Program-made: the position numbers and the translations under genes
In this document: piece after piece, positions 4,142 to 57,964 of the stretch
Layout: every line of letters begins with the position of its first letter
Numbering within the stretch: position 1 is the first letter of the stretch
The notes under the pieces: model-generated
Told to the model about the DNA's origin: nothing
The model's input: the letters and a program-made list of their open reading frames with translations, nothing else
Databases searched by the model: none
Assembly: GCF_032854445.1 (NCBI RefSeq)
Contig: NC_088296.1
Span: forward strand, 15,489,485-15,553,484
From: Liolophura sinensis
Lineage: Eukaryota; Mollusca; Polyplacophora; Chitonida; Chitonidae
Length of the DNA: 64,000 nucleotides
Direction: 5' to 3'

Positions 4142-4350
4142 TTATGCAGTGCTTATGCCCTTGTTGTAGTACGCAGACTCTGTCTTCCCTTCCGGTCTGG
4201 CCTCACTTCGGGTAAAGCGGAAGCAGAGGAAGGCGGAGGCGATCAAAGCCACCAAGAGCAGGACACCGAAGATGATGGTGACAGTCAGGAATGGGACGCT
4301 TTGAACGCAAGATTCAAAAGTGCTGGCGGGGCACGAAGTAAGCTCAATGT
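4142..4350 (-). CDS. ZP-A coding exon 10: transmembrane helix and cytoplasmic tail
   Basis: The exon is 209 nt, ending at TAA (4144-4142). After two extracellular cysteines comes a hydrophobic helix beginning FLTVTIIFGVLLLVAL, then basic FRFTR and a short tail ending NKGISTA. The acceptor is CTTGCAG. The ZP-B equivalent begins FLAVTVVFSFLLIITL. Confidence 0.87.
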
Positions 4351-7300
4351 CTGCAAGATAAAACAAATCGGAAATGTGTGAATATTTGTTCATTTCTCTC
4401 ATAGAACATTTCGATCAGTATTTTTAATTCACAATTAAATTCTACGCTGTAGGAAGAAGATGCCTTTCTTCGGTAATGTCTTCAACAGGAACCTGTTGAA
4501 TTATTGCCATAGCTCTCACAGACGAACTGTCATTGTAGGAAAAAGTAATGCCCGTTACCCTTCAAACTCGGTAATAAAGTTCATAAAATTTGTAATGCAG
4601 GTTTTAACATTTTAACACTGTAAACATTACCGGTACGAGTGTGATATTTTCTGATATGCAATAATTTGAGTTATTCTTGGTAAATATAGAAACTTTGATT
4701 TGATTAGCGAATATGGAAAAATTTTAAATACAGCCTCGTTTAAGCAAAATCACGAAGCACCCACTAGTGAAGGAGAACACCCTGACGCCGGATTGGACGG
4801 TTTCCACCTCGGTCTCGTTGCCTGCCTGACGCTTCTTACGTCCGAAGCCAGTACCAACTGGCCCGCAGGTTGACACCTGTGACAACAATAATATATGCCA
4901 TTATGGACAAGACTTAATAAAGTCTTTCACACATGCATTGTGTAACAGTCGCTAGTGAAATTCATGTAAGATTACATGAAGACTGTAAAAAGACTGTTAA
5001 AGGCTGTATCTGAAAAAACCTTTGCTTGTATTTCCTTTAGCTTTTAATGCATTCCAACGGTTGATAGCATGCTGGACTGTATGGACAATATTGCTCAAGT
5101 TTGTCCCCAGTGACGTCACAAAATTTTTCTACACCTTTATGTTCAATCTTTGTGAACTCTACTCATGTTATGTGTGACTTTGTAAAAGAAAGCATATCTG
5201 ACATAGAATACCAGTTATTAAATATGACGCTATGACGTAAAACACATATCAAACAAAGTCTATCGTACATTCCAAGCTCTTCAGTGTATTTAACTCGATG
5301 AAGAAATCTTTAAAGAAAAGAATATGTGAATGTACAGTTTTCTGCGGTCTTTCTAAAGAAATTTCGATTATAGAGTCTATGTCCTTTTAACCACTCTGTC
5401 ATGAACTGCCCCCTTTAAATTTATTGATTTATTTGATTGGTGTTGCCGTACTCAAGAATATTTCACACATACGACGGCGGTCAGCATTATGGTGTCAAGC
5501 AACTTAGCAAACCCACGACCATCCATAGGCTGCTGACAGACGCCCCGTCAGACTTAAAGAATATATGAAAGGAAATCTAAAATAAAGATTATGCCAAAGA
5601 ATGAAAAAGAAAACCTAAATTTCTGAAGCACAATTTATATCTTTCAATAACCCCTCTATTTTATTAAAATTTTCATCATCGATAAACTAACTGGTAAAGC
5701 CCCTTTCACCATTCCAGATTTCCTCTCCACGCACAGAATTGCTTCCATCACTGATGAAACTATCATCACTGATGTCACGACTGCAGACAAACTACTAATT
5801 TCCGCTGCAGTTTAAAGCCATGTTTACGAACGTACATGAGAAGATCTGTCAGCAACCTGCGGTTGCCGAGTTTCCTCCCACGGTAATGCAGGCAGCCGTT
5901 GTATAAGTGAAATATTCTTAAGTTCAGCCATTTTACGCCCAGAGAAGAAAGCTGCGAAACATTTTTTTGTATTTTTATACGTAAGGACACATTCTAAGCC
6001 GCATGTTAAGAAATAAATAACAAGAATCATGTATTTTTTATGATGATCCTTGTTGAAAGTGATGGTAAGCTTCTCTTACTGGGTTACATCTGTTGTCGCC
6101 TGCTCTACACACGAGCAGGTCACACTGGAACACGAGGTCTTGTGAGTTGTCGAACTTGAAGGCGTCGATGGGAATTGTGATGACGGTCTGGTTCCTAGTC
6201 ATCGGTGGGCGAACAACGTTCAGAGCATCCAGACCGATACAGCTGAAACCGGAAACCACAGAAGGATTAACGGGCGCGAGAATTTTAATAACATGGAGAT
6301 ACCCAGATATGTTGAGCAATACAGGAGAAACGCACACACGGTGAGCGACACAGGAGAAAGTCAGACACGGTGTGCAACACCGGAGAAATTCAGACATGGT
6401 GAGCAGCACTCAAGGAATTCAAAAGTGGTGAACAATACAGAAGAAAGTCAGACATAGTGAGCAATATAGGAGAAACGTACGCACGGTGAGCAACCACAGG
6501 AGAAAGTAAGGCACGATGAGCAACACAGAAGAAACTCAGACACGGTGAGCAACACATGAGAAAATCAGACACGGTGAGCAATACAGAAGAAAGTCAGACA
6601 CAGGGAGCAACACAGAAGAAACTCAGACATGGTAAGCAACACGGGAGAAACTCTAACGCGATGAGCAACACAGGAGAAACACAGACACGGTGAGCAACAC
6701 AGGAGAAACGCACACACGTTGAGCAACACAGGAGAAAGTAAGACACCGTGAGCAACACAGGAGAAAACCAGACATGGTGAGTAATACAGAGGAAAGTCAA
6801 ACACACTGAGCAACACAGGTGAAACTCAGACATGGTGAGCAGCACAGGAGAAACTCTTACGCGATGAGCAACAAAGGAGAGACACAGACACGGTGAGCAA
6901 CACAGGAGAAACGCACACACGTTGAGCCACACAGGAGAAAGTAAGCCACGGTGAGCAACACAGGAGAAAGTCAGACACAGTGAGCAATACAGAAGAAAGT
7001 CAGACACAGCGAGCAACACAGGAAAAACTCTAATGGGGTGAGGAAACTCTAATGCGGTGGGCAACACAGGAGAAACTCAAACATGGTGAGTAACAAGGAG
7101 AAACGCAAACACGGTGAGCCACACAGGAGGAACGCGCGAAAACGGTATTTGAAAATATTTTTGTATGCTGGGTATTGAGACCACCTAATTATATATATCG
7201 TCTTTGCATAATAATGTTTTAAATAAGGATGTGCTGCATGTCTAATAAATTTATTTGAATATAAAATCCAAACACGTCTTTAATCTTTGGTATGATAATA

Positions 7301-10300
7301 TTTATGAATATATTAAAAGTATAAATATGTATATACTAAATATATTTTAAAAAATTATAATATTATCACGCAAAGTCAATATACAAAATGGGGTCCTAGA
7401 TATTCAAAACTTAATTTCAAAACTCTTTTTCTTTAAGGAAAAATCCAAGAAAAAGAGTTAAGACCATATTTACAACTAATTTGTAACACTATTTCAATGG
7501 AACTTTATGCTATTGTTATATTCTTCACATTTAAAGCAGCATTAGAAAGAATAAAGGGTACGTACCCACCGGTTACCAAAACCTTAGACGCACGGTTGGC
7601 TGTGTTTGTTGAACTATACGCGGTACAAGAAGTGGCAAAAAGAGACTGGTATTCTGAAATCAGATATAAAATAGTTTCATCAATAACTGATTAATTCGTT
7701 CATTCATTTTCTTAGTGCATGCTTAATACGTTTTTTAAAACTATTCTGCTTTAATAAAATATTTCTTGTACTTTGCTAACAAAGTGCATTTAGTTCAAGA
7801 TTTCCACTTAATTCAAGACCAATAGGCCTACATTTTGAATCATTTTATTATCTTAGAAATTAGTCGTCATACGAAACTCGAGGGCAATGTTTAAGCAAAA
7901 GACACCTATCGTGTATGTAATATAAAAACAGAAAACGAACTTGCTGTTTGTCGAGAACGGGATATGAAGAATGCCATGCCAGTCTTAATGTTCTATTTCT
8001 GCACAGTCATATGGTGTCAAGTTTCAATCAAGTTTAGGATATAGGTCAAGTCGGTTGTTTCCTGTTTGCAGTGTTTGAGAGACCCAATTAACGCATTTGA
8101 TTTCTATACCTGGGACATATAAATGGGCTCCGGCTCATCGGAGATAATCCAGTGTAACAATGGCTGCTCCCGCAATTTTCTAAAGGGCTGGAACTTAGCG
8201 TTTATCTCCCTTGGGACATTCATTTGTTTGAGTTTCATTCGAGTTCACGCACCTTTGTGCGTGATCCTACGGTACCGAGACAAGGCTCGTGTATAGATGG
8301 GCGCCATCAGTGCAGTGATTTCATCCCAAATTTGTGGATAATTGTGGAAAGTATCAGATATTTCATAAGTATTTTCAGATTCCTTGAGTCTAAATGTGTA
8401 TCAGTGGTGTAAAACCAAGCAACTAACTGAATTAATCAAAAACATCCTCAATAAAAACGAACTATTTACTCACGTATTAGCTAATGAACATTAAGTTATT
8501 CAACATGACGGCGCTCACGAAAGGCAGCATGAAAAGATAGTTCGATGAAATAATCAGCCGTGGCGTTTCTGTAGACTAAAAACCAAAGCAGATCACCGCT
8601 CTTAGTGCGACATGTGAGGAAAGAGATGTCACTGCAGCCTAATCGACTGGGTATGGCAAAAGTCTCGTATATCAGCTTATGCTTTGGGTCATCCAGCGTC
8701 GAGAACAAAGTGTAGAACTCACGATAACTATTGCTGTTTCCCCTGTGAATTCTGTTATGCAAAGTCAAGTGGTAAGTGTGTAAATATATTTAAATTGGCA
8801 TGGTTCAGCTTGAGCACGGACGGAGAAGATAATAATACCATCGAAGCCTTTAAAAAAAACGCACTGGTCAACAGTTCGGTACGTTCGCTCAGGTGTCGTA
8901 ATGCACGAGTCTCGCTTTCGACGTGGCTGTTGTAAAAAGTATGTTCTATATTAGAATGTTAGGGTTTGTGAATATCTTCCTGATTCATGCACGAAATTCT
9001 TCGATTCACGCCAGCATGCTACTGTCGTTTTCTTTTCCTTTAAAGCTTTCTCGACACTGATCCTATCCCATCTTAGTGGTAGTAACCATCTTTGGCCAAA
9101 CAAATGTTTTGCCAAACCTAACGTCGGAGCAATCTAGGGCTATTTTCTAAATAAAATATCCGGGACGTTGTACTCACGCGTGGAATCGAGGACAAGCCGC
9201 AGCTCCAAGTCCTCGCCAACGATAGCCGTCTCTGTTGCGGCCATCTCAGCCCCCGAGGACGCTCGGATGATCTCCATGTGGGTCACTGTTGTCGTACCGG
9301 TTACGACCTGACCCGGGCGGGAAGCGGCAGGCCTAGACAACAACAACAGCAACACTGAGTGATTTCAATTCCACTACGGAAAATGACCCACATTCACAAA
9401 ACATCGTAAATCAAAATGAGAATTACGAAGATTGGTTTACAAACTTTTGTGAAAGTGGCTCACAGACTATAAAATATCTTTCACTCAGTGTCAGTTCAAT
9501 GCCAATATTTCATCCACCGCCTCTTAAGGCTTTTTTGAAAGGAGTTAAAAGCATTCAAGCAGTTGGATTCTAAGGTGGACATTATTTACCATACCAGCCC
9601 TACCAGTGTCTAGGAACTCTGACGTCACAAGAAGTTTTCCCACTGTACATTACCATGGATTCTAAGGTGGACATTATCTACCATACTAGCCCTACCAGTG
9701 TTTAAGAACTCTGACGTCACTAGAAGTTTTCCAACTGTACATTACCGTGGATTCTAAGGTGGACATTACCTACCATACTAGCCCTACCAGTGTTTAAAGA
9801 GAATGTTACGTCAGAAAGTATTTTCAAGCTAGTTTTGAATTGCAATAATGTAGCCTTGTTTGACTTTAAACACTACGCAGTGATTACCTTTAGTGATGTC
9901 AATAATTCATGTACAACTTCACAAATCTGAGGTCATTTTGGTGGGGGGTGGGTTGTTGTAGAGTGAGCCCAGGAGAGGCCTATAGACCCATCACGAAAAC
10001 TACACTAGCCTAATATAAAGCATGATTAAAGACGTACAGCATGGAGAGTAAAACCAGAGCATCGACGTCAGTGTCATAGCTGGCAAATGGTCACAAGTAA
10101 CCGGTGAAACACGGCATCTTGTCAGTTTACCTCCGTCAGGGTTTTACTACGGCGGCCAGCATTATGGTGAGAGGAAACCGGTCTGAGCCCGGGGGAAACC
10201 CACGACCATTCGCAGGTTGCCGACAGACCTTCCCACGTACGGCCGGAGGGGAAGCCAACATGAGCTGGACTTGAACTCACAGCGACCCCGTCAGGGTTTT

Positions 10301-13300
10301 ATTCTAACTGTTCATGTAAATACATAGATACTAGCTATCTGCACGTCCCCTAGCACCATGGCTTAAGCTGAATGAGGTTAAAAAAGTGCATTGATGTTAA
10401 TTGCAATTTACAAGACGTCTCTGGTCTAGAATTACTCAAAACGCTGTGCTGTCGTGACATTTAACTCACAGACTACACCATGAAGGGTTAAATTAAAACA
10501 TCTTCGACAGTGTGATAATTAGCAAATGGTGAAAACTGGTGAATTCAAGTCATTTCAGTACATTTTTTGGTGCCAGGAGATATGTGTTCCAGGAGATATG
10601 TGTTCCAGGAATGAATGTTCCACGACGAGCGCCAAAGGTTTGAAAATGTTTCTGCTCTGCACAAGTGATATTGTGACAAGCAGGAAGGTAAGACTAAGAA
10701 GAAAACTCACTGGACCCCGATAACCCCCTGTACTTGTCCGTCCGTAGTATGGATACAGTTGGCTACATGTTCCTCGTCGTAAATTGTTTCGTACAAGGTA
10801 CTGTACTGCACAACAACTCTCACCGCGTATATCGTGTTACCGCTCTGGAAAAAAAAGCAACAACATAAAGAAAACATTATTTTCCAACTATACTAGCCGT
10901 CCTGGCCCCGGTTTCATGAATCATACTTAGCTAAGTAAGCGCTTAACAACCATGACGACGTATGTTGTAAAGATATGAAGTGCACTTAGCTAGGGGCTAC
11001 TTAACACATAAAGGTTTCATAAAGGTGACCCCTCCACATAGATACATAGTATGACATAGCCCCCTCCCCCCCCCCCCCCCCCCCTCCTTTCACCAAAAAT
11101 GTTTTCTTTCCATAGACCAAATAACATGGGCTGGGCGATTTTAATAAAAATGCTTAACAAATAAAGGACAACAACAGAACAATGGTCTGTCCAGTTTGGA
11201 CCTAGGTCGCCATTGTGTGGGAACAGTTGACCCATGATCCATGAGTTCTCTCCCTTAGACTGACCTCTTCAAATGCGATGGCAAAAAAACACCCCGAAAT
11301 ATCATGTGGTTTCTTAAGCAAATACCCCATCTAAATTGAGTAAACAATGACAGGGAAGTTGATCGTTTTTTCGAGCGTTATTATATTTCTTACGGCGCAT
11401 GCGTCGCTCTCTACCTCTATGCACTTTTTAACGGAATAAACATCTGATTTGAATTTAAAACATCTGACTGCACGATGACATTTAATTTCTAATCATATTG
11501 CAACAAGTAACACCACATCAGCTTTTTTAGCTATAGTGCAAGCAAACTACTAGACCTCTGCTTTCAAAATGCACAAATATAGACAGCTATGAATTATTTG
11601 TCGAATATCCCTTAGAAATGAACTATTTCAAGCAAAAAAGATGGATGTGACGTCACGGTATCCGCTGCACTGGGTCCCAACAAATCACTGTAGGATTATA
11701 TTTGTTTCACTGAACCATTTTATCAGGTTGGAAATAATATTCTAAAATAGTAAATGGAGCTATTTTTCTGGGAATTTTTAAAGGGCTTTTATCTGACATG
11801 ACTTCACTATTTTGAGATGACCTAACACTGGCTTAGAGTGTTTCGCTTATACAAGGTGTAGATTACACTTCTCGACACTGATATCGGAAATGACAGACGC
11901 AGCGCAAGGTGGAGATACCAGTCGAGCCTTACGTTTGCCTGGACGGTAGATGTTATTCCGCAGGAATTCAGATTGAAGGTCTGGGTAAAAGAGGTCGAGG
12001 GAGGGGTAGGGTTGGAGAACTGACACTGCGCCACGTTCCCTTGATTCTTGACAAAGATCTTTCCGTTAAAGTTGGCTCCTGGCAGAGGGATGATGGTTAC
12101 GGACATTGTACTCACGTCGCATGTGGTCGAAACTGAAAGTGAATGAAGAAAAATGTGTTGCAGTGCGTTACATGATGCAGTGGAGGACAAGCCCCATGTG
12201 ATCGTATTATCGTTATTCGGAATTAAACCAATTTCTAAACCAGATCCACAAAAAGCTGCATGTGGTCAAAACTGAAAGTGAAAAAGCGACAATCTATTAC
12301 GTCACGCAATGGAAGACAAACCGTATGTGGTCGAAAGTGAAAGTGAAAGACCTCGAATGTATTACGTCATTCAGTGGAAGATAAATCACATGTGGTCGAA
12401 AGTGATGCAGTGGAAGGTAAGCCCATGTTTTAAGAATAGCACGTTACTCTAAGAATTAACATCAAAAAAACTCTTTACCATCAAAAGGACATGACCAAAA
12501 GTAAAGAATGTTCAAAATCAAACTATGAAACCTGATCAACCCAATTTAATGTAGTAAGTAACTGCAACAAAACATTAAGATCAGCCAAATTTTAAAATAT
12601 AGCCAGCTCACTGTGGGGAAGGGAAGCCTGAGATAAGATGTTGTCACTGTAACCCGACCAAAAGTTTTCTGAGACGAGAAACTTTGACCAAACTCGAGGT
12701 GCAAATTATTTCTCTGATGCTGAGGTTCAAACTAGTTTTCTCAAATGGCGAAATCTAACGAAACCCGAGGTCCAAACTAGTCTTCTGAGATGGGAAACTC
12801 TCACCAATCCTGAGGCCCAAACTAGTTTTCTCAAATAGAAAAACTCTGACCAAACCAGAGGCCCAGCTTAGTTTGCTGAGATGAGAAATTTTGAGGGGAA
12901 CTGTGATGCCTATCCTAGTTTCGCTTACCTCTCTCTGTGTCGCAGCCTAGGCCCGTGAATCCAGCAGTACAGGCACACAGGTCACTCGGTCCACCATTGT
13001 TGTAACATATTTGGTTAGTACCCACACAGTTTTGGTTGTTACAAGTTCCGGCCGTTCGGAGTGTTCCTATAACGATAAAAAACAACAACTTAAAAGAAAA
13101 CAAACTCAATAAAGTGGTAAACTGTAACAAGTCTAAAACCCAACTTACTTTCTTTCCCCATGGGAGACTGTAACCCAGGAAGGCCAATGGGAAGGCAGAA
13201 CATAAAAGACTTACAGCATAGAGAGTAAAACCAGAGCAACAATGATAACTGGCAGTGTGACAGCTGGCAAATAGTCACACGTAACTGGTGAAATATGGGT

Positions 13301-15027: not shown

Positions 15028-15045
15028 CCTGCCAACACAAAGACA
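15028..15045 (-). promoter_or_regulatory. Probable 5' UTR splice acceptor before the ZP-A start codon
   Basis: Reading the minus strand, CTTTGTGTTGGCAG ends one base before ATG. ZP-B has the same arrangement, which suggests a conserved 5' UTR intron with an unlocated non-coding first exon upstream. Confidence 0.5.
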
Positions 15046-15450
15046 ATGAGTATGCGCCTAAAAAATGGACCTACAGTGTAAACATACTAGAATGCAAGAG
15101 ACTACTGTATAGAGAGTAAAAGGAGAAAAGCAACGAAAATATGATAGTGGGCGAATGCTAACACATAACCACTGAAATCCGGTTAGGGTGGAGGCATTGC
15201 TTAAAAGGTTCCAATTGCGACAAAGACTGGCCTTTCGTGTGAAAAGCACCAACAAAATACCTATGAATACATTAGCATACACAAGTTGCCAGTGGAACGT
15301 GGAATAAAGAAGGTGTTGCACAAGCCCACAAACAAGAATTAAATGCACCCATCGTTTACATAAAACGTGGGTATGAAGTTTCCGCTCAATGGCCCTCAGT
15401 CTATACATCGCAGTCTTTGAACGTTGCCAGTTTATCGAAAATAAGAATTT

Positions 15451-15497
15451 GGAGGGGAGGGGGCGGGAGTGGGGGTGGGGGGGGGGGGGGGGGGTCA
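15451..15497. repeat. G-rich tract upstream of ZP-A
   Basis: Several G-runs of 4-6 followed by about 19 consecutive G on the plus strand, about 430 bases upstream of the ZP-A start codon. It has quadruplex potential. Confidence 0.85.
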
Positions 15498-15764
15498 GGA
15501 GTTAGTGATGATGGACACTTGACGAACCATATACTGATTCCTGGTTTTAAACATGTTCTCGCCACGATATGGCTGAAATATTGCCGATGTGGCGTAAAGC
15601 CATAATCATTCATTCATTCATTCACTTGACATGACTCGCATTACCGATATGTGAAAGTGTATTTAACCAGTCTTATGAATTGCAACTGATATCGCTGTAT
15701 GTAGTAAAATCCAATTCTAGTTATAAAATCATGATACCAGACGGTGCATACGCTACTACTATTG

Positions 15765-15932
15765 AATTATGATCTCATATTCAACATAATATTTTGTTAG
15801 TTTAATGAAATTTTTGTGTTGAATTAACAGAATATGTGTGTTATGTTTAACAGAAAAATCTGCTGCCATAGCAGAATACATTCCGGCATCACTCAGACTT
15901 TGTGTTAAATTTAGCAGATTCTTTTTTTTCGA
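15765..15932. mobile_element. MITE-1 copy upstream of ZP-A
   Basis: MITE-1 is a palindromic element built from (TA)TTCTGTTAATTC and AGCAGAATAnATTCnnGCATCACTCA motifs; the best copy is at 61.8 kb. Here GAATACATTCCGGCATCACTC and flanking inverted motifs are visible. The element is degenerate. Confidence 0.65.
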
Positions 15933-24180: not shown

Positions 24181-24184
24181 TAAT

Positions 24185-24416: not shown

Positions 24417-24417
24417 C

Positions 24418-40470: not shown

Positions 40471-40477
40471 AATGTTC

Positions 40478-43380: not shown

Positions 43381-43382
43381 CA

Positions 43383-46705: not shown

Positions 46706-46707
46706 AA

Positions 46708-47032
46708 ATAAAAGATAATTGAGAAGGGTAAACAATATAACTGAGAAGGGTGAACAATATGACTGCGAAGGGTAAGCAATATAACTGAAAAGATAAACAA
46801 TATTACTGAAAAGGTAAACAATATAACTGAAAAGGTAAAGAATATAACTGAGAAGGATAAACAATATAACTGAAAAGGTAAACAATATAGCTGAGAAGGA
46901 TAAACAATTTAACCGAAAATGTAAACAATATAGCTGAGAAGGATAAACGATATAACTGAAAAGGTAAACAATATAACCTAGAAGGGTAAACAATATAACT
47001 AAGAAGGGTAAACAATATAACTGAAAAAAAAT
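46708..47032. repeat. 21-22 bp minisatellite, about 15 copies
   Basis: Units AATATAACTGAGAAGGGTAAAC and AATATAACTGAAAAGGTAAAC. Minus-strand hydrophobic frames across it are repeat by-products. Confidence 0.92.
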
Positions 47033-47427
47033 CAAAACGATTTTCAATACTGCTCAACAAACACACACTTCATAGACGTTTTGTTTTGTCCTCTTTGAAG
47101 ATGGTTCTGTTTTCTGGTTCTGTTTTCGGGTGCTGTTTTCTATATTATCTTTGGCACTTGTACAGCAATGTCTCTTTTCAGTTGTCCACTCATTCCACTT
47201 CCACCCCATCTTGAAGCAAAAGACTGGGATCTGAACACAAGCAGTTTTTAATTGAGTTTACCCTGAAGTACATAATCCTCAGTCTTATTTGCTTTTCGAG
47301 ATGAATACTTGTAATGCTATGCTATACTATACTGGTCATGGCGTATGATATCTCGACAAAAAAAAAAGAAACATGACGTTATCAGACGCAGAATGATCTT
47401 TTTAAGCATTTTGAAATTCTATGCCAC

Positions 47428-47503
47428 ACCTTGTCATGATTTGAACTCAGGTCTCTGACTTACGACATTTACTAGGCCGACGCTCTACCATCTCAGGCAT
47501 CCA
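47428..47503 (-). other. tRNA-like sequence (pseudo-tRNA or SINE head)
   Basis: On the minus strand GGATGCCTGAGATGGTAGAGC is A-box-like and GACCTGAGTTCAAATCATG is B-box-like, spaced like a tRNA. The stems pair poorly, so it is not called a functional tRNA. Confidence 0.45.
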
Positions 47504-48940
47504 AGTGGAGCGATGCAGAGGTGCATAAACTGTGCCGGCCGGGAAGGTCAAAGTTTTTATACTTTTTTTTTATCATCGCTTGACGAGAGACAAATCATTA
47601 GGCCTCGATGGATGAGGATGTCAAGTTTCGTTTACAGTTTTAGCAAATTAAACAAACTAAAAGGTCAATAGTCTTCGTCTGTACACTGGTCTAATTATTT
47701 TAACAAGTAGAATTAGTTCAAAGGGCTTTTCTCTAGTATGCCTATCTTCTTGGCGGGTCTAATTACATGGTTTCCCATGGAAATAGTTTAACGCACATTA
47801 TGTGTGCCACAGATTAGCGCATATCTTGGTCTTGCAGATTAGTCGACTAGTGGTGGATTTGTTTACACTGTTTAAAAGGCGCAACCCTTAGCGCTGTGTT
47901 GGGTTTTACAAACATAGAATGTGTCTTTTATCATTACAAATCGTGCTCTTGTTAGCGCAGAACATATATTTGTTAAGATTGGATGTCTGTTTGCTATCGT
48001 ATATTTGTCATCGTGTTGTGAAAATGTTTGCCAACATGTAGTTCCACCTGTAAAACGAAGATTAAAATACACAAAACTCTACCCCAAGAATACCAATGGT
48101 TTTTAACCACCTTTTCTACACCTCCCCCGCCCCCCGAAACTGAAGTAGGTAGTCTTGCTCCACCCAAGAATATCTCCTAACTCAGAGCAAAGATAGAAAT
48201 ACTGCAGAGTATATACTGATAATGCTTGTGAAACATATATAACGTCTCTCATTTCTGTGTAATATCACCCTAGCAGTCCAAATTAAACCTCCAGATGATA
48301 AGACAGAGATAAATCAAAGTTTATTTTATTGTACGTATTACCTCTAAGCCTCCTCTGACCGAAAATTTTTCTTTCTTTCCAAACGTTAGTTTTTCGTGAG
48401 TCACATCCGAGTTCGTCTTACCATCTATTTGTTGATCGATTCAAGGATTTTTACTGAATAAATTTACACTATCTTAACCTCTTCGCTCTGTCACGTTTTT
48501 CAAGGAATGATTCTTACTAAACTGCGTCATCCAAAAACAAATAGTATTTAACGAAAACGTGAAAAACTGGTATGGGTTCATGGGTCTGACGATCTACACT
48601 TTGTACAGATCGTCATTATGCCAGGTTACATATGTATATGTTTACACGCGCTCACATGCCCCTTAGCTTTGTCATCGACGCCAAGAAACATCTCAGCGAT
48701 GAGACACAATTCTGCTGTACGTTTATGTTCGGTCACACCTAAATCTAAACTTGTATTTGCTGTCAAGGTTTTGTTTGGCGGGGCTACATAGACATAAAAA
48801 TCTTCAGAAAAAAACAAAAACAATGCTCATACATGTATCTAGCCATCGTAACTCCTCTCCTGTAAAACGGTGACTAGATAGATCCTGCACTAGATAACTA
48901 AAATATATTATATGGAAGCAAAATATATAAATAAAATATA
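47504..48940. other. Intergenic stretch, no gene recognised
   Basis: Only short frames. No repeat that recurs elsewhere in the window was noticed. Confidence 0.4.
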
Positions 48941-48944
48941 TTTA

Positions 48945-49006
48945 TTTTTTTATTTATTTGTTTGTTTGTTTATTTGTTTGTTTGTTTGTTTGTTTGTTTG
49001 TTTGAC
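48945..49006. repeat. (TTTG)n / (TTTA)n microsatellite
   Basis: About 14 tetranucleotide units, ending in GTTTGACTGGTGCACTGAAC, which resembles the end of a SINE-1 tail. Confidence 0.9.
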
Positions 49007-49309
49007 TGGTGCACTGAACAACGGGATTTATACAGGGTTATGGATGTAGAAAGGGATATGACTAGAACAATGTGATATAGTTAAACACGCTAGCTATAGA
49101 GCCCTTCCACAAAACTCTTATTAACGTCAAATCGTTTCCTGAGGGATAACGGAATGCATTTCCCGTGGATCTTAGGGAATTTGAAGTGTAAAGTAAGACT
49201 TGTGATTTTGAAGAGCTGATTTCTGGTGAAGGATTTGTCGATCCTCAGTCAATTTAGTAATCAGTTGATTAATTCGATTAGATATCACAATTAAAACGAC
49301 GTGTTACTC

Positions 49310-49750
49310 TAAAAAAAATAAATAACCCGTTAAATTTAACAGAAAGTCTGTTACCTCAGTGATGTTATAATGTATTCTGTTATATTGCAGCAGAATATTC
49401 TGTTTAAAATAACACATAGTCTATTAATTCAAACGTAGCGAATCTATTAGACTAACAGGATATTACACTCTAAAAACACCTGTGTACAAGCGGTACACAG
49501 TGTTGTTGCAAAACTTCATTTGCAAAACTTCATGTCCACATAATTTTGGGTACCATCAGTACACAAATTGTGCATTTCACGGTAATTTGTGTACATATGT
49601 GTGTATCGCTGATACATATGTCACTGTGGATGCGCAAATTTGTACCCAGTCGTTTTCAGAGAGTATATTGAATATCACATAGTACTGTGTCATAAGGGCG
49701 GAATACATTCTAGCATCACTCAAAGAACAGATTTTAATTAATTTCAGATT
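49310..49750. mobile_element. MITE-1 copy with a nested element, directly upstream of ZP-B
   Basis: The left arm (TTAAATTTAACAGAAAGTCTG and ATAATGTATTCTGTTATA) and right arm (GAATACATTCTAGCATCACTC and AGAACAGATTTT) are inverted relative to each other. Between them lies a second, about 200-bp element at 49468-49670 with its own ends (CACTCTAAAAACACCTGTGT, and ACTCTCTGAAAACGACTGGG on the other strand). The right arm ends about 55 bp before the ZP-B start codon. Confidence 0.72.
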
Positions 49751-49786
49751 AATTTTTGGAGTTCATGAAAATATCCGCTGTAATCT

Positions 49787-49805
49787 CATTCTGTTTTTCT
49801 TGTAG
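49787..49805 (+). promoter_or_regulatory. Probable 5' UTR splice acceptor before the ZP-B start codon
   Basis: TTCTGTTTTTCTTGTAG ends immediately before ATG at 49806. This is a strong pyrimidine tract plus AG, so the true promoter and first exon should lie further upstream. Confidence 0.6.
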
Positions 49806-49854
49806 ATGACAAGAATGATATGGATATTTGCGCTAGCCGTGATGGCGCGAATTG
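49806..49854 (+). CDS. ZP-B coding exon 1: signal peptide
   Basis: The exon is 49 nt and encodes MTRMIWIFALAVMARI, a hydrophobic signal peptide, with donor GTGAGT. The ATG follows a strong pyrimidine tract and TTGTAG, so the start codon is probably the first triplet of an internal exon. Length and phase match ZP-A exon 1. Confidence 0.8.
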
Positions 49855-52800
49855 GTGAGTTCAAACTTACAGTTTGTTCGTATGTACTAAGGTCTTGATT
49901 CCAAACTCTTAAATGACAAAGACGAACCCTTAAGTATTATAATATTCAAGACCAGCTACTAACACAAAAACTTCTTCCGTTTATGACAGGATTAGAGCAA
50001 AGGTCATCGGAAGATCATTTTCTGTCGGTTCTTTACCATTTTTTTTTTACTGTCATCTGCTTTTTTATACCATATTTTGTTAGTGTGGTATAATTTTTTT
50101 CTTTTTTTTTCTGACAATTTTTTGTTACTGTTTAATGTGTAATGTTTTTACAATTTTCATCACTGTTGTCTGATTGTCCGTTGTTTTGTTTTTTTGGTGT
50201 TTTTTTTTCATTGTACTGTCTTTTTACACGTACTGTCTGACATACAATCTTTATCTCCATTGCCCAACACCAATATCTGACCACCTTTGTTTCCGTTTCC
50301 TCACAGCGCATGCGGCGTACGTCCCGTATGATTGTCGGCGTTCGAACCAGGTATGTGTGTCTGACGTCACAGGTGGACAGTGTACAAACACCGGATCATG
50401 TGTCTGCACAGATCCTAACTTCACCGGATATGATTGCTCGCTACCCGCAGGTAGGTTCACGCTAATTAAAAACGAATAAGACAACCTTACACAAAATCAG
50501 AATAGGCGCTCTATTGGCACCTGCTAATCTGAGCCTCCGTTCGCCGCCTCTACCCCCACCCCCCACCCTTCAAAAAAGATAAAGAACAAAAAAATAATAA
50601 TAATAAATTTCAATGATATACGTACAAACAAGAAACCAGGTCTGACTTCAGTCGAAATTTTGAACAATACCATTATACTTTACGGGCCATTTGTGGGCAA
50701 ATACAAAATGAACCTACAAATCGTAACAAGCGTTGTGCAAAGGCAAACCTGCCACAAGGTTTTGTTTATTTATTTGTTTATGTATTTGACTGGTGCTTTA
50801 CGCCGTACTTAAGAATATTTCACTTATGCGACAGCAGCCAGCATCACAATCTTTTGAGTCCATCAACTGTGCATTAATATAAAATACGTTTTCGAAAAGC
50901 AATGTTCCATATGTAATAAAAACTCAAAGTCAAATGATATTGGTGAAAATGTTTGTTGCTCGCATTGCACATGTAGTTTTTGACATTGGTCGTCTCCTTT
51001 GCATCCATTACTTCCAATTAATTCATCTTTTACAGCGGAATTATATCATTCTTTATACAAACAAATCGTATTATCTGTGGGTCATGTATTTGTATTTAGT
51101 TCAGGAACGCTTTCCCCCGCAGTGTAGTATTGACTGTGGAGGGCGTGGAAGATGCTATGACGATGGATTCGGTGCCAAGTGTTTTTGTGATCCGTCTTAC
51201 TACGGAGATCGGTGTCAGTTTGACAGAGGTAAATATTAATCGGGTGTTCCACCCATCCAGTATCTGAGTGTTCGAATCCGGATGACGCCTCTTTTTTTTT
51301 TCTCTCTGTATACTTTAGCTTAGCCTATGTTTCTTCCTTTTTATCATAAGTTTTTTAAAGGTGATAATGTGAACACTGTATACATGTAGCTAAATATCCA
51401 AACTATATTTCAGTTTTTTCATATAAAAAAAACTATGAGTATTGCTTAACGCCACTCATAAAGATTTTCCACTTTAACGATGGTGTTTAGTTTTATGGGT
51501 GAATGAAACTGGTATGAACAATGCCAGCGGGAAAAGCCATGTCCGACAAATATTCCGTGTAACAGAGGAAGAAAAAAAGGCGTGCGAGGAAGATATGCAA
51601 AAAAAAAAGGAATTTTCCCATGAGAAGACAGACAATGTTCAACGAGACAAGATAGCGTTTTGCAACTTCATTATGTGAATAATTACTCCAAAGGAGAATA
51701 CTCTGCAGATCTCGCGATGAGATTACGATATTTGCCTGAGATTTTGGGTGTATTTGTACGTAGTTACGGACATAAATCTCAGAAAAGGATTTATCCTAAA
51801 GGGTTTATTTTAATATTCGTATTTTTGCCGAATTCCATGTGGATTACCTTTATTAATCATGTTAATCCGTCAAATAATTTTCTTTCTCTTCCCTTTTTCT
51901 CGCTCTTTCCATTTTTTCCTACAGTATCAGTCCAATGTTTCACTGAGTACATGACAATTCGGGTGTTTCCGATCAATTTTAACGGTGAGATTTTTGTGGC
52001 AACCCTGCCTCCTGATGTGGAGCCCGCGTGCCAATTCGAGGCTGCGCCTGACGGAAATGGTTTCCTGAAGAATCTATCTTTCAGTGACAACCCCACCGTG
52101 AATCCATGTTTACCAAATCTGAGTGTCGCCACGAGCACTGTGGTAAGTATTAGTGGTGTTTTATTGTCTTCCTTGGTGAGTAGGTGGCGCTGTAATCAGC
52201 CGCCTAATTTAAATTGCATTCAGGGCCATTCTTCTACCAAACAGACATATGTAAGTGCATAACAAGTCATATCAGATATTTCAACATGTCGAATAATTCC
52301 TCTAAACATGTTCTGCCTTGCATGTCGCTCTTGCAGTGACGTAATGATTTGACGCTATAGTGACGCTCCATTTCTGGTTCTGCTCATTTTACGCATTTGA
52401 CATCATACAACCCATACTTTTCACTAATCAAATTGAAACAAAATATAAGTTGAAAAACATAATGTCTACATGATTTAGACATACAGTACACTTTAAAAGA
52501 CGATTATCTCAGTGCTGAAGAGAATGGTTCCACAATAAATAGTTCCTTGAGGTAAAAATACCCCTTATGTTTCTTTTAGTATAACACAGGACACTGGCTC
52601 CATAAGACTCTGTCCACTGCTTAGATTGCTTTGCCGCCTGCTGTCTTGACTTAGGCTCTGTAATGTTTAGACAGACAGACACACAGACAGACAAACAGAC
52701 ACCAGCAAAGACATCAGCCTTAGCGAAGGTAATGACATGATTGAGGTCGCTCATGTATCCATAACATCCACTATACTCATACCGTTGTTCTTTTTTTTTT

Positions 52801-55800
52801 CTTGATATTTCACACTTTTAGGATGGGACAAACATTTTCACCTATGAGATCTCGGTCAAATACAATCCTAGGTACACGACATTTGTTGATGAAATCCACA
52901 CTGTTACCTGCGAACACACGCTGAACGGGCCGTTAGTTGGAGCAGTCATAGATGTGGAGTGAGTACACACAGTTAAAACGCAAATGTTAAAGACGGGTCA
53001 CCACATGGAGCTCTCGTAGATGTAAAGTGGGTATAAGTGAGTAGTCAAGACGTAAATGTTAAAATGTCAACAACCGTGGAGCGGTGAACCGCTCAGCCGT
53101 TTATTCGTATTTTTTCTTGTCTCTTATTTCATCGGTGCTGGGTGGAGTAGGATTGGGGTGGGGGGGTGTCAGTCACCCTTGTAATCCTATTTTTCGTGGC
53201 CTCTTATTTCAGTGGGGGGCCTACCAACGGTGTGATCATTTCCGGTAATGCCACCGTCCTTGACCTTGACATCACGCGAGAGTCGGATGGAGTCTCCGTC
53301 AGTAGAAATAACCTCGTGACCTTCATCGGGGAGGATCTGAACATAAAAGTGTCGCTCAAGGACGAGTCAAGTACGTGACCTCTAACAAACTGCTATTAAG
53401 ATCACCGCATTAGTTAGCTAGTTCTGCTTACGCCATGATGTTACGGCGAATAAGCTACTACTACTTCAGCATTTAGACGAACAGTCAGAACCAAAAGAAA
53501 TTCATTTTACAACACAGGTATAAGACTTGAAATTAAAGCGACCGCTAAACCGCAAATTTAACAGACGAAAAGGGGACACAGGTGGACTTTAAAGACATAA
53601 CTGAAGCAAACTTAAGAGGAAAGAGTTCAAGTCCAGCTCATGCTGGCTTCCTCTCCGGCCGTATGTGGGAAGGACTGCCAGTAGCGTGCGGATAGCCGTG
53701 GGTTTCCCTCGGGCTCTGCCTGGTTTTCTCCCACCATAATGCTGGCCGCCGTCGTATAAGTGAAATATTCTTGAGTACGGCGTAAAACAGAAATCAAATA
53801 AATAAATACATACTTTGTAAGCCGTTAGCTTTTAGGTTCAATATTCTTTGTAAGCTTTTAGCTTATAGGGTCAATATACTTTGTAAGTCGTTATATGGTC
53901 AATATAGTTTGTAAGCCTTTAGCTTATAGGGTCAATATACTTTGGGTTTGTCAGCAGCTTGCGGATGATCATGAGTTTCCCCCTGATCCAGCCCGGTTTC
54001 CTCCCATCATAATGCTGGCCGCCGTCGTTTAAGTGAAATATTCTTGAGTTCGCCGTAAAACATCAATTAAATAAATAAGTTTATCGATATACTTTGTAAG
54101 CCGTTAGCTTATAGGATCAATATACTGTGTAAGCCTTAAGATTAATTCATTGTATCAAAAATGGTATTTAAACATGGTTTCTTTGTGTACAGGATACAAG
54201 AATCACAAGGTGGAGAACTGTGGAGCCTACAATTACCCACTGCTGGATTCTGCCGTCAACAACCTCAGGCTGGAAAAGAGAATGGTGGCAGATGGGTGAG
54301 GTTAGAGGGTGTATCCATTAGTTTTGTTCTGCGTAGTCGGGGTCTCCGTGGCTCAGTCGGTTAGGGCGCTGGTGAAGCGTAATGACCCAGGAGCCTCTCA
54401 CCAATGCGGTCGCTGTGAGTTCAAGTCCAGATCGTGCTGACTTCCTCTCCGGCCGTAAGTGGGACGGTCTGCCAGCAACCTGCGGATGGTCGTGGTTTTC
54501 CCCCGGGCTGTGCACGGTTTCCACCCACGATAATGTTGGCCGCCGTCGTATAAGTGAAATATTCTTGAGTACGGCGTAAAACACCAATCAAATAAATGAA
54601 TAAGTTTTGTTCCGCATGAAACATTTTTACCTGTGACAAACAGCTCTCTATGAGAGCAATATTGTGGTTGTGTGGTTGTTGGGGATGGTTAGCTTGTTGA
54701 TTTTGATTTCTGGGTGCATCTTTGAAATGCGCATGCGTCACGACTTGTGACCGAACATCGGTATTTTGTTCTTCTTCACTCCTGTGAAGTACATGTATAT
54801 ATCATGTCAAAGATCTAAATGTACCTATGTATAGCCCCTGGGAATTATTGAACCCTACATAGTCTGAAATGCATTCTAAGCGATTTCTGGGTAGTAAGTA
54901 AATATATACGTCGACAAATATGAATTATTTTCAGAGCAAAGATACCGCAAGGCAATAAGTCGTTAGAAGCCAATTTAGTTATTTCAAAATATCGCTCATG
55001 TATAAGAAACCATGTTATGAGTACACCATAGGCCTACTATACCAGCCACAGCCCAATGTTTTGTACCAAACCTATGTTTGCTTGTACGTGGGGTACATGT
55101 ATTTATAAATATGTATATTTACATAAGTGTTAGGAAAGTAGCCTCTTTTCGCACATACTGTAATTAGTTAGAAACATGGCTAATGCATGGGAGAATAACT
55201 TATATGGTAACAAACCCATATCATACATCCTCATGTTTTGTCCCGTATCGTACCTATGTTTCGTCGTATGTTAATACCTGAGGTACAATATCATATCATA
55301 ATGGTGTATCCCAGGTTATATCGATCTATTTGCCATAATGCTTGCCGCTGTCGTATAATTGAAATATCCGTGAGTATGGTGTAGAACATGAATTAAATCA
55401 ATAAATAAATTATTCCATGTAAGCAGTCCATCAGTCAATCAATCCACATGTTATTCATTCCGTCATCGTTTCTCCTCTCCCCAGCTGCCCGGCACCGGAC
55501 TCCCAGGATGTCATCAGCGGTCCTCTCATAAAGACACCCACCACAGTCTTCGTCCCCTTCAAAGCTTTCAAATTTAACACTGGAGAACTGCACATCTACT
55601 GTTCGGTTAGGGTGTGTCTTCAGGCGACAGACGCCTTGTGCCAACCCGTGAGTATGCAGCCGCAACAGAAATTAGTCTCGTAGAATCTCATGCCTCGCGT
55701 TAACTCCTTGGCGTCCAGTGGACGGTCCCCCCAACGGAAGTGTTGAAAAAGGCCCAAATCCCACAACAACCTTCACATGGTAATGACGTCAGTGGATTCT

Positions 55801-57964
55801 GATTGGCTTACCTTTGCGTGACTTGCGAACAAAACTATTTTTCAGTATCGTTATTTACATGGCCTCTATGAATTGGGCCTAAAATCATGACATAGGCTCA
55901 GCCTCAAAACCTGGACCTTGTTAGATTCACAGATTGGGAGGCTATAGGTTCTGCATGTAGCAAGCTGAGAGGAAGTCAGTCGCAGCTTCATTACTACCTG
56001 ACACCTTGTGTCTTCTCGCTAAGTATTTAAAATTCCCATCGGTAAAACTCATACTTGTTCAGAGTTTGGATAATTTCCTTTGTTTTCATACCAACCATGC
56101 CTATGTACACAAAAAATAAAAAAACAGAGGGGTTATTTGGTCTTGCATCCACATTGGCTTTAGAACCGGAAGACGTCTGAGCGCAAGGCAAGCGGTAGGG
56201 AGCCAATCAGAGTTCAGTGGCGTAAAGTGTATGTTGTTGTTGTGTCAGCATCTATCAGCTTGTCCCTTACCAGCCTGATCACTGCACCTTATGCAGGTAA
56301 CACGAAATAGCATACCATCGAGGATTTGCGGGGCTGGGTTGACTTTACGAAACTTCGCCAAAAGACGTTTGCCTGAAATATATTTATCTCTTTCCTGGCT
56401 GGCTCTGTCGATTGAAATGTTGATCTCACACAACTGATCAATCTATGAATGACGAATGAAGTCTCGTGTTCAAATCCAGCTATGGTTGACTCAGCTAAGG
56501 CTCAGGAGTTTTCCCAGGTAGCCTATCTGACGAAGGGCGCCATCTTACATGTACAAGGGAAAAACGCTTTAGTAAGGTGTTACACACCAATCAGATAAAT
56601 GAACAACAAAATAAATATCCTTTTCAAAGGGGGCCTTTATGATCCAGTGGTTAGCGCGTTAGCACAGCACAATAACCCAGGAGACTCTCATCAATGCGAC
56701 CGTTTTGAGTTCAAGCCCAGCTTATACTTGCTTCCTCTGGTCGTGTGTTGGAAGCACCCTTCGGACGGTGACGGGTTTCCCCGGGTATCTGCCGAACCTC
56801 TATTCGCCATAATGCTGGCTGTCATCGAACTAATGAATTTTTGGGGTACGGCGCAAAACACCAATCAGATAAATAAAGGTAATATTCCTTTCAACAGGAC
56901 GACTGTACTGCTCAGAAGGGAGGCCCAGGAGGTGGATTCGGGCGTAAGAAACGACAATCTGGTGATGACCAAGACGTCGAAGAGCTCTCCACCAGCTTCT
57001 ATGTTGTCACGAAACTGGAACCAGGTTGTGAGTACGAAACTGTGGCTCTGTGTGCCTGTCTGATGTTTGTAAATATAGAGCCAAGGATATCCTAAAACAT
57101 TCGTTAGTATCGTGTTGACGAAATAGGGACTTGACTATAACTATTAGCCTTAGTTAAATACCAATTTGCAGTATTTGTAGGACCTACTGACAAGAAGCCC
57201 CAAACATTATTTAATAAAACCAGGGCTGTAGATCAATAAATGATTCTGATCAGTGTACAAAATGTTTTCAAGGATTTCAAAAATCTAATGAGCTGTACTT
57301 TCCAGCATTTTAAACTAAATGACATTCAGGCCAAATGTTCCTACTAACTTCCATGTTGAAATTAATGGGTACTATTTCAGAAGGTCATCGATTGGTCCAT
57401 TAACTACATTATTACTCATGATATTTGCATAATTTAACGCCATTAATCGAGTAAACCTAGTATGGTTCGAAATATACAAGCACCACGTTATCTTATGAAT
57501 ATGAATTAAATTAAACGTTAAATTAGCTTAATATTAGTAGTAATGTATCATTTTTTAATCAAACATTATGTAGAGCGCTCATTAAGTAGAATTTGCTAGA
57601 GATCTGGCATTGCGCCAATAGACTTAAGTTCGCCAATATCACGCGAAAGATCAGTGGTTTATTCTTTTAATCCACTGACAAAACTGGTCGCCATAGCCTA
57701 TATGGGCCTAAATGAGCAATTCAGTTCTGAATATGGCAATAAACACGTCTAAAATAAATTAATTTCTTCACAGATTTCCAAGAAAGCAATTCATCCACGA
57801 AGGTTGAGGAGAAGTCCTGTTTCCAGACGCCAGCCTTCTTAGCCGTCACAGTGGTGTTCTCTTTCTTGCTGATTATCACACTGGTTGTCACAGTGATCAT
57901 GTGTCTGAGATATATGCGACGGGAAAAAGAGCTCACTAAGGGAGACAACTCTGCGAGAGCATGA
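49806..57964 (+). CDS. ZP-B: EGF-like and zona pellucida domain transmembrane protein (10 exons, 473 aa)
   Basis: Coding exons are 49806-49854, 50307-50450, 51100-51228, 51925-52142, 52822-52958, 53213-53370, 54193-54295, 55485-55647, 56898-57027 and 57774-57964. They total 1422 nt with no internal stop and the same intron phases as ZP-A. Order of parts: signal peptide (about 1-16), EGF-like module 1 (26-60), EGF-like module 2 (73-103), ZP domain (about 112-367), furin-type site RKKR (383-386), stalk, transmembrane helix (about 431-454) and a 19-residue tail. By family knowledge it is an extracellular-matrix or egg-coat type polymerising precursor; the tissue is unknown. Its introns carry at least five SINE-1 copies, two of them within 50 bp of splice sites. 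An unrecognised 5' non-coding exon is expected upstream. Confidence 0.88.
50307..50450 (+). CDS. ZP-B coding exon 2: EGF-like module 1
   Basis: The exon is 144 nt, phase 1 to phase 1, with acceptor CCTCACAG and donor GTAGGT. Six cysteines run from YDCRRSNQVC to DPNFTGYDC, an EGF-like pattern. An Asn-Phe-Thr sequon lies near the end of the module. Confidence 0.88.
50762..50845 (-). mobile_element. SINE-1 3' fragment in ZP-B intron 2
   Basis: Tail plus ACGCCGTACTTAAGAATATTTC and the start of the body. Confidence 0.75.
51100..51228 (+). CDS. ZP-B coding exon 3: EGF-like module 2
   Basis: The exon is 129 nt, phase 1 to phase 1. Two AG acceptors are near each other. The one at 51098-51099 (ATTTAG) keeps frame; using the downstream TTCAG would shift phase and hit a stop, which decides the start. 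It encodes a six-cysteine module containing DCGGRGRC and ending SYYGDRC, a textbook EGF pattern. Confidence 0.87.
51425..51545 (-). mobile_element. SINE-3-like fragment in ZP-B intron 3
   Basis: ATTGCTTAACGCCACTCATAA and TTTAGTTTTATGGGTGAATG resemble the 38.7- and 43.4-kb segments. Confidence 0.45.
51925..52142 (+). CDS. ZP-B coding exon 4: first half of ZP-N
   Basis: The exon is 218 nt, phase 1 in and phase 0 out. Pyrimidine-rich acceptor ending TACAG; donor GTAAGT. It contains ZP-N cysteines 1-3 and FNGEIFV. It is 18 nt longer than the ZP-A exon, the extra residues lying between cysteines 2 and 3. Confidence 0.88.
52822..52958 (+). CDS. ZP-B coding exon 5: end of ZP-N
   Basis: The exon is 137 nt, phase 0 in and phase 2 out, with acceptor TTTTAG and donor GTGAGT. 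It contains the fourth ZP-N cysteine in HTVTCEHT and ends GAVIDV. Confidence 0.86.
53213..53370 (+). CDS. ZP-B coding exon 6: ZP linker and start of ZP-C
   Basis: The exon is 158 nt, phase 2 in and phase 1 out, with acceptor ATTTCAG and donor GTACGT. TFIGEDLNIKVSL is the conserved strand before ZP-C. An Asn-Ala-Thr sequon is present. Confidence 0.87.
53398..53498 (-). repeat. DR-2 fragment in ZP-B intron 6
   Basis: CTGCTTACGCCATGATGTTA and TTTAGACGAACAGTCAGAACC match the reverse complement of the DR-2 centre. Confidence 0.6.
53622..53814 (+). mobile_element. SINE-1 copy, head missing, in ZP-B intron 6
   Basis: Starts GAGTTCAAGTCCAGCTCATG, contains the whole body and ends with an AAATAAAT tail. 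Confidence 0.85.
53815..54140. repeat. Repeated TTAGCTTATAGGGTCAATAT units around a SINE-1 piece
   Basis: Copies of ACTTTGTAAGCC-GTTAGCTTATAGG-TCAATAT occur before and after a SINE-1 3' fragment at 53944-54084, with an approximately 33-bp period. Confidence 0.78.
53944..54084 (+). mobile_element. SINE-1 3' half in ZP-B intron 6
   Basis: From GTCAGCAGCTTGCGGATG to an AATAAATAAG tail; nested in the short tandem repeat above. Confidence 0.8.
54193..54295 (+). CDS. ZP-B coding exon 7: ZP-C cysteine 5 region
   Basis: The exon is 103 nt, phase 1 in and phase 2 out, with acceptor GTACAG and donor GTGAGG. It encodes NHKVENCGAYNYPLLDS and ends MVADG. A full-length SINE-1 was inserted 37 bp downstream of its donor (54333-54602). 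Confidence 0.86.
54333..54602 (+). mobile_element. SINE-1, full length with target duplication, in ZP-B intron 7
   Basis: The head is GGTCTCCGTGGCTCAGTCGG, the body is complete and the tail is AAATAAATGAATA. Flanks: AGTTTTGTTCTGC (54320-54332) and AGTTTTGTTCCGC (54603-54615), 12 of 13 identical. Confidence 0.9.
55333..55413 (+). mobile_element. SINE-1 3' fragment in ZP-B intron 7
   Basis: CATAATGCTTGCCGCTGTCG through an AAATAAAT-type tail. It ends about 70 bp before exon 8. Confidence 0.7.
55485..55647 (+). CDS. ZP-B coding exon 8: ZP-C core
   Basis: The exon is 163 nt, phase 2 in and phase 0 out, with acceptor CCCCAG and donor GTGAGT. It completes GCPAPDSQDV and holds FVPFKAFKFNTGELHIYC and RVCLQATDALCQP, the canonical end of a ZP domain. 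Confidence 0.9.
55970..56105 (+). repeat. DR-5 fragment in ZP-B intron 8
   Basis: CATTACTACCTGACACCTTG, AAACTCATACTTGTTCAGAG and TTTGGATAATTTCC match the 30.7-kb copy. Confidence 0.7.
56630..56878 (+). mobile_element. SINE-1, full length but diverged, in ZP-B intron 8
   Basis: Head GGGGGCCTTTATGATCCAGTGG, B-box-like GAGTTCAAGCCCAG, and 3' end GTACGGCGCAAAACACCAATC. It lies immediately before the exon 9 acceptor. Confidence 0.82.
56898..57027 (+). CDS. ZP-B coding exon 9: post-ZP stalk with furin site
   Basis: The exon is 130 nt, phase 0 in and phase 1 out. It contains a ZP-C cysteine, a glycine-rich run and GFGRKKRQ, the predicted furin-type site. Two donors three bases apart fit the phase (GTTGTG after 57024, GTGAGT after 57027). 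The second has the better consensus and adds one residue. A SINE-1 copy ends about 20 bp before the acceptor. Confidence 0.84.
57774..57964 (+). CDS. ZP-B coding exon 10: transmembrane helix and cytoplasmic tail
   Basis: The exon is 191 nt, ending in TGA (57962-57964). A stalk with one cysteine (KSCFQTP) precedes a strongly hydrophobic helix, FLAVTVVFSFLLIITLVV, and a basic tail (RYMRREKEL). ZP-A has two cysteines in the same stalk, so disulphide pairing may differ between the paralogues. Confidence 0.87.

Follow-up and report, generated by a model that had tools for sequence, protein, structure and literature searches.

Two genes encoding predicted proteins with EGF modules and a ZP domain, here called ZP-A and ZP-B, were recognised in a stretch of 64,000 nucleotides (nt) from the chiton Liolophura sinensis (C2:15489485-15553484, the window in what follows; genes elsewhere are labelled by contig and Mb, e.g. 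C2:4.34). Both appear to be members of a chiton EGF-ZP family whose products, to judge from their sequences, would build an extracellular filament matrix out of furin-released type I membrane precursors, a reading to which we assign a probability of about 0.78. As further members of an EGF-ZP layout already described for mollusc shells and for the eggs of ribbon worms, they were mostly to be expected. What is new is their architecture as a family trait in this chiton: the ten-exon gene plan is not peculiar to ZP-A and ZP-B. Six relatives from the same genome were modelled alongside them, namely C2:4.34 (minus strand), C2:13.19, C2:14.06, C2:14.09 (plus strand), C7:3.05 (minus strand) and C7:2.97 (plus strand).

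Gene models of ZP-A and ZP-B

Gene models were rebuilt from the genomic sequence, with splicing at GT..AG sites in both genes. ZP-A occupied the minus strand (15027-4142) and ZP-B the plus strand (49806-57964), so that the two stood back to back on opposite strands with about 35 kb between them. In each, ten coding exons joined into one open frame, of 458 and 473 amino acids (aa), respectively, and the stop codons ended at 4142 and 57964. The phases after exons 1 to 9 were 1,1,1,0,2,1,2,0,1 in both, and the two genes displayed equal lengths of exon 1 (49 nt) and exon 8 (163 nt). The ten-exon, same-phase organisation given in the preliminary description was confirmed in these models, which are predicted from sequence. 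The exons are listed below; all follow from the spliced frame, with further sources in brackets.

ZP-A
14979..15027, minus strand: coding exon 1, signal peptide, 49 nt, ends in phase 1 (hydrophobic N-terminus)
13723..13851, minus strand: exon 2, EGF 1, six Cys (phase-free script, Cys count)
12929..13066, minus strand: exon 3, EGF 2, six Cys (phase-free script, Cys count)
11933..12132, minus strand: exon 4, first part of ZP-N (Pfam, phase-free script)
10711..10844, minus strand: exon 5, second part of ZP-N (Pfam, phase-free script)
9178..9332, minus strand: exon 6, linker and start of ZP-C (Pfam, phase-free script)
7566..7653, minus strand: exon 7, ZP-C (Pfam, phase-free script)
6080..6242, minus strand: exon 8, ZP-C, 163 nt (Pfam, phase-free script)
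4765..4876, minus strand: exon 9, furin-type site GFGRKKR/Q, then hydrophobic strand (strand picked by eye)
4142..4350, minus strand: exon 10, transmembrane helix, short tail, stop

ZP-B
49806..49854, plus strand: coding exon 1, signal peptide, 49 nt, ends in phase 1 (first-exon prediction)
50307..50450, plus strand: exon 2, EGF 1, six Cys (phase-free script, Cys count)
51100..51228, plus strand: exon 3, EGF 2 (phase-free script; Pfam EGF_2 at its cut-off)
51925..52142, plus strand: exon 4, first part of ZP-N (phase-free script)
52822..52958, plus strand: exon 5, second part of ZP-N (phase-free script)
53213..53370, plus strand: exon 6, linker and start of ZP-C (Pfam, phase-free script)
54193..54295, plus strand: exon 7, ZP-C (Pfam, phase-free script)
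55485..55647, plus strand: exon 8, ZP-C, 163 nt (Pfam, phase-free script)
56898..57027, plus strand: exon 9, furin-type site GFGRKKR/Q and hydrophobic strand (donor 57024 possible; strand picked by eye)
57774..57964, plus strand: exon 10, transmembrane helix, short tail, stop

With a splice-aware script in which phases were imposed, the exon peptides of ZP-B alone retrieved exons 2 to 10 of ZP-A, and vice versa, with scores of 676 and 681; control scans (n=6; three 11-kb segments of the intervening DNA, with both strands and both references used) scored 18 to 89. A second script, run with phases free and with either A and C2:4.34 or B and C2:4.34 as references, returned identical exons and phases. 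The chance of nine matching phases was computed as about 1e-4, on general values of phase frequencies. Exon 3 of ZP-B was placed to start at 51100, and exon 9 of the same gene could end at a good donor (57027) or at a poor one (57024), frame and phase being kept either way.

In A, an AG acceptor-like site was located one base 5' of the start codon, and in B such a site immediately preceded it (15028-15040 and 49794-49805); similar sites lay within six bases of the start in three of the four other predicted first exons of the family. These sites suggest that the 5' untranslated region is interrupted by an intron.

Protein layout, processing and likely use

Each predicted protein was composed of a signal peptide, EGF 1, EGF 2, ZP-N, ZP-C, the sequence GFGRKKR/Q, a hydrophobic strand, a single helix and a tail, which measured 25 residues in A and 18 in B. 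Two EGF modules, a ZP domain, GFGRKKRQ and one helix had been named in the preliminary description. ZP modules carry four cysteines in ZP-N and four or six in ZP-C, and A and B agreed with this rule, displaying six per EGF module, four in ZP-N and six in ZP-C. Pfam ZP-C exceeded its cut-off in both proteins; Cuticlin-N (CUT_N) did so in ZP-A, at the ZP-N region, while EGF_2 stood at its cut-off in ZP-B. A profile built from six genes of the family aligned with uromodulin (E 3.8e-13) from an EGF module across ZP-N and the whole of ZP-C, the other strong matches of this profile being Notch-type EGF modules. Together, the Pfam ZP-C matches and the profile placed ZP-N before ZP-C in A and B. The earlier claim that the two are homologous proteins of the ZP filament type is supported.

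Downstream of ZP-C, both proteins displayed a basic site (GRKKR), a hydrophobic patch and a membrane anchor, site and helix being located by script. A motif G-R-[KR]-[KR]-R followed ZP-C in all eight modelled genes and was itself followed by a hydrophobic helix. The strand between them (VRVFSFT in A, SFYVVTKL in B) was picked by eye, as the top stretch of the script adjoined the helix in both; it was seen by eye in the seven genes whose exon 9 reads through, while the script agreed in four of eight and, in the others, A and B included, selected a stretch adjoining the helix. Gene conversion was considered as a source of the identical GFGRKKRQ and rejected: G-R-[KR]-[KR]-R-[QE] is conserved throughout the family, so that the identity between A and B is nothing special.

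From this layout, both proteins would be made as type I membrane precursors reaching from the signal peptide to the short cytoplasmic tail. If they behave as uromodulin and the ZP proteins of egg coats do, the hydrophobic strand would block premature polymerisation. General ZP biology suggests that a furin-type protease would then cut after GRKKR, upon which the strand would depart and the ectodomain be freed. The ZP modules could thereafter polymerise, with EGF arms that may stand off the filament and face outward. Uromodulin, a precursor that is cut and polymerises, is comparable to the family profile in having EGF modules followed by ZP-N and ZP-C aligned over its length; it differs from A and B in being a kidney protein, in carrying a glycosylphosphatidylinositol (GPI) anchor in place of the helix and in being cleaved by another protease.

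The matrix may be secreted by the mantle, for shell plates, sclerites or cuticle. By analogy this is the likeliest use, with chances of about one half, since molluscan proteins of the same layout for which data exist are shell matrix or mantle proteins. The literature places EGF-ZP proteins in the shell or mantle of oyster, pearl oyster, limpet and nautilus, those of Pinctada, Nautilus and Lottia coming from mantle or shell as told in PMC11673550. An EGF-ZP protein is also counted among the shell matrix proteins common to four marine conchiferans compared (PMC8700984). These proteins (EGFZP/EGFL; oyster EGF-ZP1-3 and IMSP-2; those of Lottia and Nautilus) are described, like A and B, with one or more EGF modules, one ZP domain and a signal peptide; in A the EGF modules are identified by cysteine pattern. 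Three EGF-ZP shell matrix genes of oyster are stated to lie on one scaffold, with 37.5% identity, and thus resemble the chiton family in being several related genes close together. They are proteins of conchiferan shells and mantle, in contrast to the chiton pair, which is known from genes and likened to them by layout. A report on EGF-ZP proteins in chitons was not found in the open literature searched, whose coverage is partial, and no priority is claimed; the main text of the chiton genome paper (PMC7850002) contained neither 'egf' nor 'zona'.

Several observations weigh against the proposed filament matrix or its use by the mantle. Pfam ZP-N remained under its cut-off in ZP-A (19.7 versus 24.7 bits) and was unlisted for ZP-B. 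ZP-A drew no match from any Pfam EGF model, even with E relaxed to 10, so that the identification of its EGF modules draws on cysteine spacing, on the alignment with its relatives and on the EGF matches of the family profile. At E 0.01, Pfam ZP-C was matched by three of six full-length family members, next to EGF_Teneurin in three, EGF_2 in two, CUT_N in two and ZP-N in one, and a genome search with Pfam ZP-C at E 0.001 missed the exons of the window itself. Such patchy matches among the six members indicate that single models catch the family poorly. Furthermore, PMC11673550, citing Shimizu 2022, has EGF-ZP proteins evolve independently in several lophotrochozoan lineages, and the same source detects three of the four EGF-bearing nemertean proteins (NeZPL1, 4 and 6) in oocytes.

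These nemertean proteins lead to a different use, namely as egg-coat or oocyte-surface proteins, in the manner of the abalone vitelline-envelope ZP proteins. NeZPL1, 4, 5 and 6 are described in PMC11673550 with a signal peptide, one or two EGF modules, a ZP module, a furin site and a transmembrane region, and they agree with A and B also in having the furin site directly after ZP. Given the oocyte location of proteins of this layout, a role in eggs fits equally well by layout; NeZPL1, 4 and 6 nevertheless differ from A and B in being nemertean and detected in oocytes, and are likened to them by layout. Literature searches found no chiton expression data, and the molluscan EGF-ZP proteins with data are shell or mantle proteins. 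Moreover, the one young pair of the family that was measured (C2:14.06/14.09) displayed a nonsynonymous divergence (dN) of 0.16, below the synonymous divergence (dS) of 0.39, with no sign of overall positive selection. Egg coats are accordingly considered an improbable use. A somewhat better, and still doubtful, candidate is a general apical extracellular matrix, be it of cuticle, gut, nephridium or sensory aesthetes, with no tie to mineral or eggs: the ZP-N region of ZP-A matches the Cuticlin N-terminal domain of Pfam above cut-off, and uromodulin is the best solved relative. Nothing specific speaks against such a matrix, but domain matches do not indicate tissue.

With a mantle-secreted matrix as the favoured use, one may speculate further that chitons possess an old and expanded EGF-ZP family with a fixed ten-exon plan, distributed over two chromosomes and employed in shell plates and sclerites; taken as a whole, this is a tentative proposal. 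If true, an EGF-ZP shell matrix would be older than the divergence between chitons and shelled molluscs. The independent lophotrochozoan origins reported in PMC11673550 speak against a matrix of that age, without settling the question. With its fixed gene plan, the chiton family could serve as an outgroup for asking whether the EGF-ZP matrix arose before the conchiferan shell, and shared intron phases could serve as a character of orthology where proteins have diverged to about 23-36% identity.

The chiton EGF-ZP family and the origin of the pair

The preliminary description suspected that the pair belonged to a larger, lineage-specific family, and further EGF-ZP genes were indeed found on C2 and C7 when the genome was searched with A, B, C2:14.09 and C7:3.05. 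As to lineage specificity, other molluscs and nemerteans also have proteins with this layout. The six modelled relatives shared with A and B the layout, the furin-type site and the internal phases, at identities of 23-36% to A or B. With phases free, the internal phases (after exons 2 to 9) were 1,1,0,2,1,2,0,1 in seven of eight genes (A, B, C2:4.34, C2:13.19, C2:14.06, C2:14.09 and C7:3.05). Seven of the eight junctions agreed in C7:2.97, the odd one bordering an exon 9 with a frame break. In C2:14.06, exon 7 from the phase-free run was wrong and its replacement was selected with the phase required, so that neither of its junctions counts as independent evidence; in C2:14.09 the beginning of exon 7 was trimmed. 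Exon 2 started in phase 1 in A, B, C2:4.34, C2:14.06, C2:14.09 and C7:2.97, in phase 2 in C2:13.19 and in phase 0 in C7:3.05. First exons predicted with phase 1 imposed measured 49 nt in C2:14.06 and C2:14.09, 46 in C2:13.19 and 76 in C2:4.34; one was looked for and not found in C7:3.05, and no such search was made in C7:2.97. Exon 8 was 166, 157, 160, 160, 169 and 181 nt long in C2:4.34, C2:13.19, C2:14.06, C2:14.09, C7:3.05 and C7:2.97, respectively, and as none of these measured 163 nt, the equal length sets A and B apart.

Further matches, known from searches, were located on C2 (13.21-13.23, 14.02-14.04, 14.07, 14.21, 14.33 and 14.43 Mb) and on C7 (3.00, 3.03-3.04 and 51.70 Mb). They were mostly weak (E 0.001 to 0.5), with the exception of C2:14.07 (1.7e-7). 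Matches confined to the EGF stretch on C6 (35.51-35.55 Mb, eight rows), C8, C12 and C13 were left out of the family, and Pfam ZP-C matches on C1, C9 and C13 were left out of the trees, which consequently lack an outgroup. The ten-exon gene with fixed phases may be ancestral to the family and may have spread by duplication over C2 and C7.

In the unrooted tree of the eight genes, A, B, C2:4.34, C7:3.05 and C7:2.97 were separated from C2:13.19, C2:14.06 and C2:14.09 with support of 100/99 or 100/100. A and B thus fell in one group of the family. Nothing was firm within the A/B group. The best tree joined A to C2:4.34 (83/89, or 65/86 under a second model), and the trees contained several long end branches, of which the tree program warns.

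Identity between A and B was as moderate as previously described (about 32%), and their divergence appears old, again as previously stated: synonymous sites were saturated, with a proportion of differences (pS) of 0.80 that lies beyond correction, so that dS was not computable. In the eight-gene alignment without exon 1, A displayed 31.9% identity to B, 32.3% to C2:4.34 and 29.1% to C7:3.05, while B reached 36.2% with C2:4.34 and 35.1% with C7:3.05 and was nearer to both than to ZP-A. The six-gene alignment with exon 1 yielded 31.7% for A-B and 30.8% for A-C2:4.34. The order of B and C2:4.34 therefore flips between alignments, leaving the nearest relative of ZP-A, as judged by sequence, undecided.

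The preliminary description derived the pair from an inverted duplication, i.e. from one event that would have left A and B as mutual closest relatives, back to back ever since. Homology and old age were upheld, but the main argument for a direct duplication, the common exon phases, is removed by their presence in the other EGF-ZP genes of C2 and C7. The adjacency on opposite strands, the common group set apart from C2:13.19, C2:14.06 and C2:14.09 at 100/99, and the equal lengths of exons 1 and 8 speak for such an event, a 163-nt exon 8 being absent from all six other models; a 49-nt exon 1 was, however, predicted in C2:14.06 and C2:14.09 as well, with phase 1 imposed. Forcing A and B together in the eight-gene tree cost 3.2-3.8 log-likelihood units under two models and was not rejected by the approximately unbiased (AU) test (p 0.143 and 0.144; 0.343 in the six-gene tree). 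Joining B to C2:4.34 performed no better (3.3-4.3 units, AU p 0.11 and 0.088), and joining B to C7:3.05 cost 1.2 and 0.7 (AU p 0.40 and 0.45). A-B identity exceeded that of A-C2:4.34 in the six-gene alignment. On the other side stand the greater proximity of B to C2:4.34 and C7:3.05, the pairing of A with C2:4.34 in the best tree, and the best genome matches besides self, which led from B to C2:4.2-4.3, from C7:3.05 to B and from A to the last exon at C2:14.09. On balance, a direct inverted duplication is slightly disfavoured and is held to be possible rather than probable.

Some members displayed peculiarities of their own. The C2 13-14 Mb group differs from A and B by two extra cysteines in ZP-N and by a PPxYxN tail, which is the form taken in these three genes by a Y-x-N motif of the cytoplasmic tail; the motif was encountered in A, C2:13.19, C2:14.06, C2:14.09 and C7:3.05 and was absent from B, C2:4.34 and C7:2.97. 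Unlike A and B, C7:3.05 lacks two ZP-C cysteines that all seven other modelled genes carry, and their joint loss suggests that they pair with each other in the other genes. The frame of C7:2.97 apparently breaks in exon 9 (C7:2979780-2980000), just past the furin-type site, as in a pseudogene or through an assembly error. The 3' part of the C2:4.34 gene (exons 5-10, about 12 kb) was found in two copies about 50 kb apart (C2:4.24, 4.29 and 4.34 Mb), with blocks of 91-99% identical DNA, most of them 96-99%, while exons 2-4 occurred once in 4.23-4.36 Mb. These copies may stem from partial tandem duplication in recent times or be an artefact of the assembly.

Introns and intergenic DNA

As claimed earlier, the introns of ZP-A and ZP-B are unrelated: blastn uncovered repeats as the sole sequences in common, in pieces that matched the other gene at several places. 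The DNA between the two genes is summarised in one line.

15028..49805, no strand: stretch between the first coding exons, 34.8 kb, with tandem and dispersed repeats (Pfam, repeat scans)

No further gene was recognised between ZP-A and ZP-B, none of 20 tested frames (out of 35 listed stop-to-stop frames of at least 90 aa) attaining a Pfam cut-off. The search for other genes also yielded no transfer RNA, in a scan with a bacterial-code setting, and no Rfam match. A 74% match in the same sense upstream of both first exons (15787-15929 and 49315-49465) was considered as a shared promoter and rejected as a dispersed repeat, with at least 47 matches in the genome including the query (from 40 scored of 2185 candidates).

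Intron 7 of ZP-A contained a minisatellite of about 25 copies of a 29-bp unit (6295-7133 of the window). Further minisatellites were located at 953-1624 (56-bp units, 12 copies), 38250-38636 (18-bp, 21 copies), 59710-59966 and 60537-61123 (40-bp, six and 15 copies, respectively). A short repeat, SINE-like (resembling a short interspersed element) by eye and with runs such as AATCAAATAAATAAA at its end, was present in introns of both genes, with copies at 13490-13720, 14275-14445, 53621-53811, 54375-54602 and other positions of the window.

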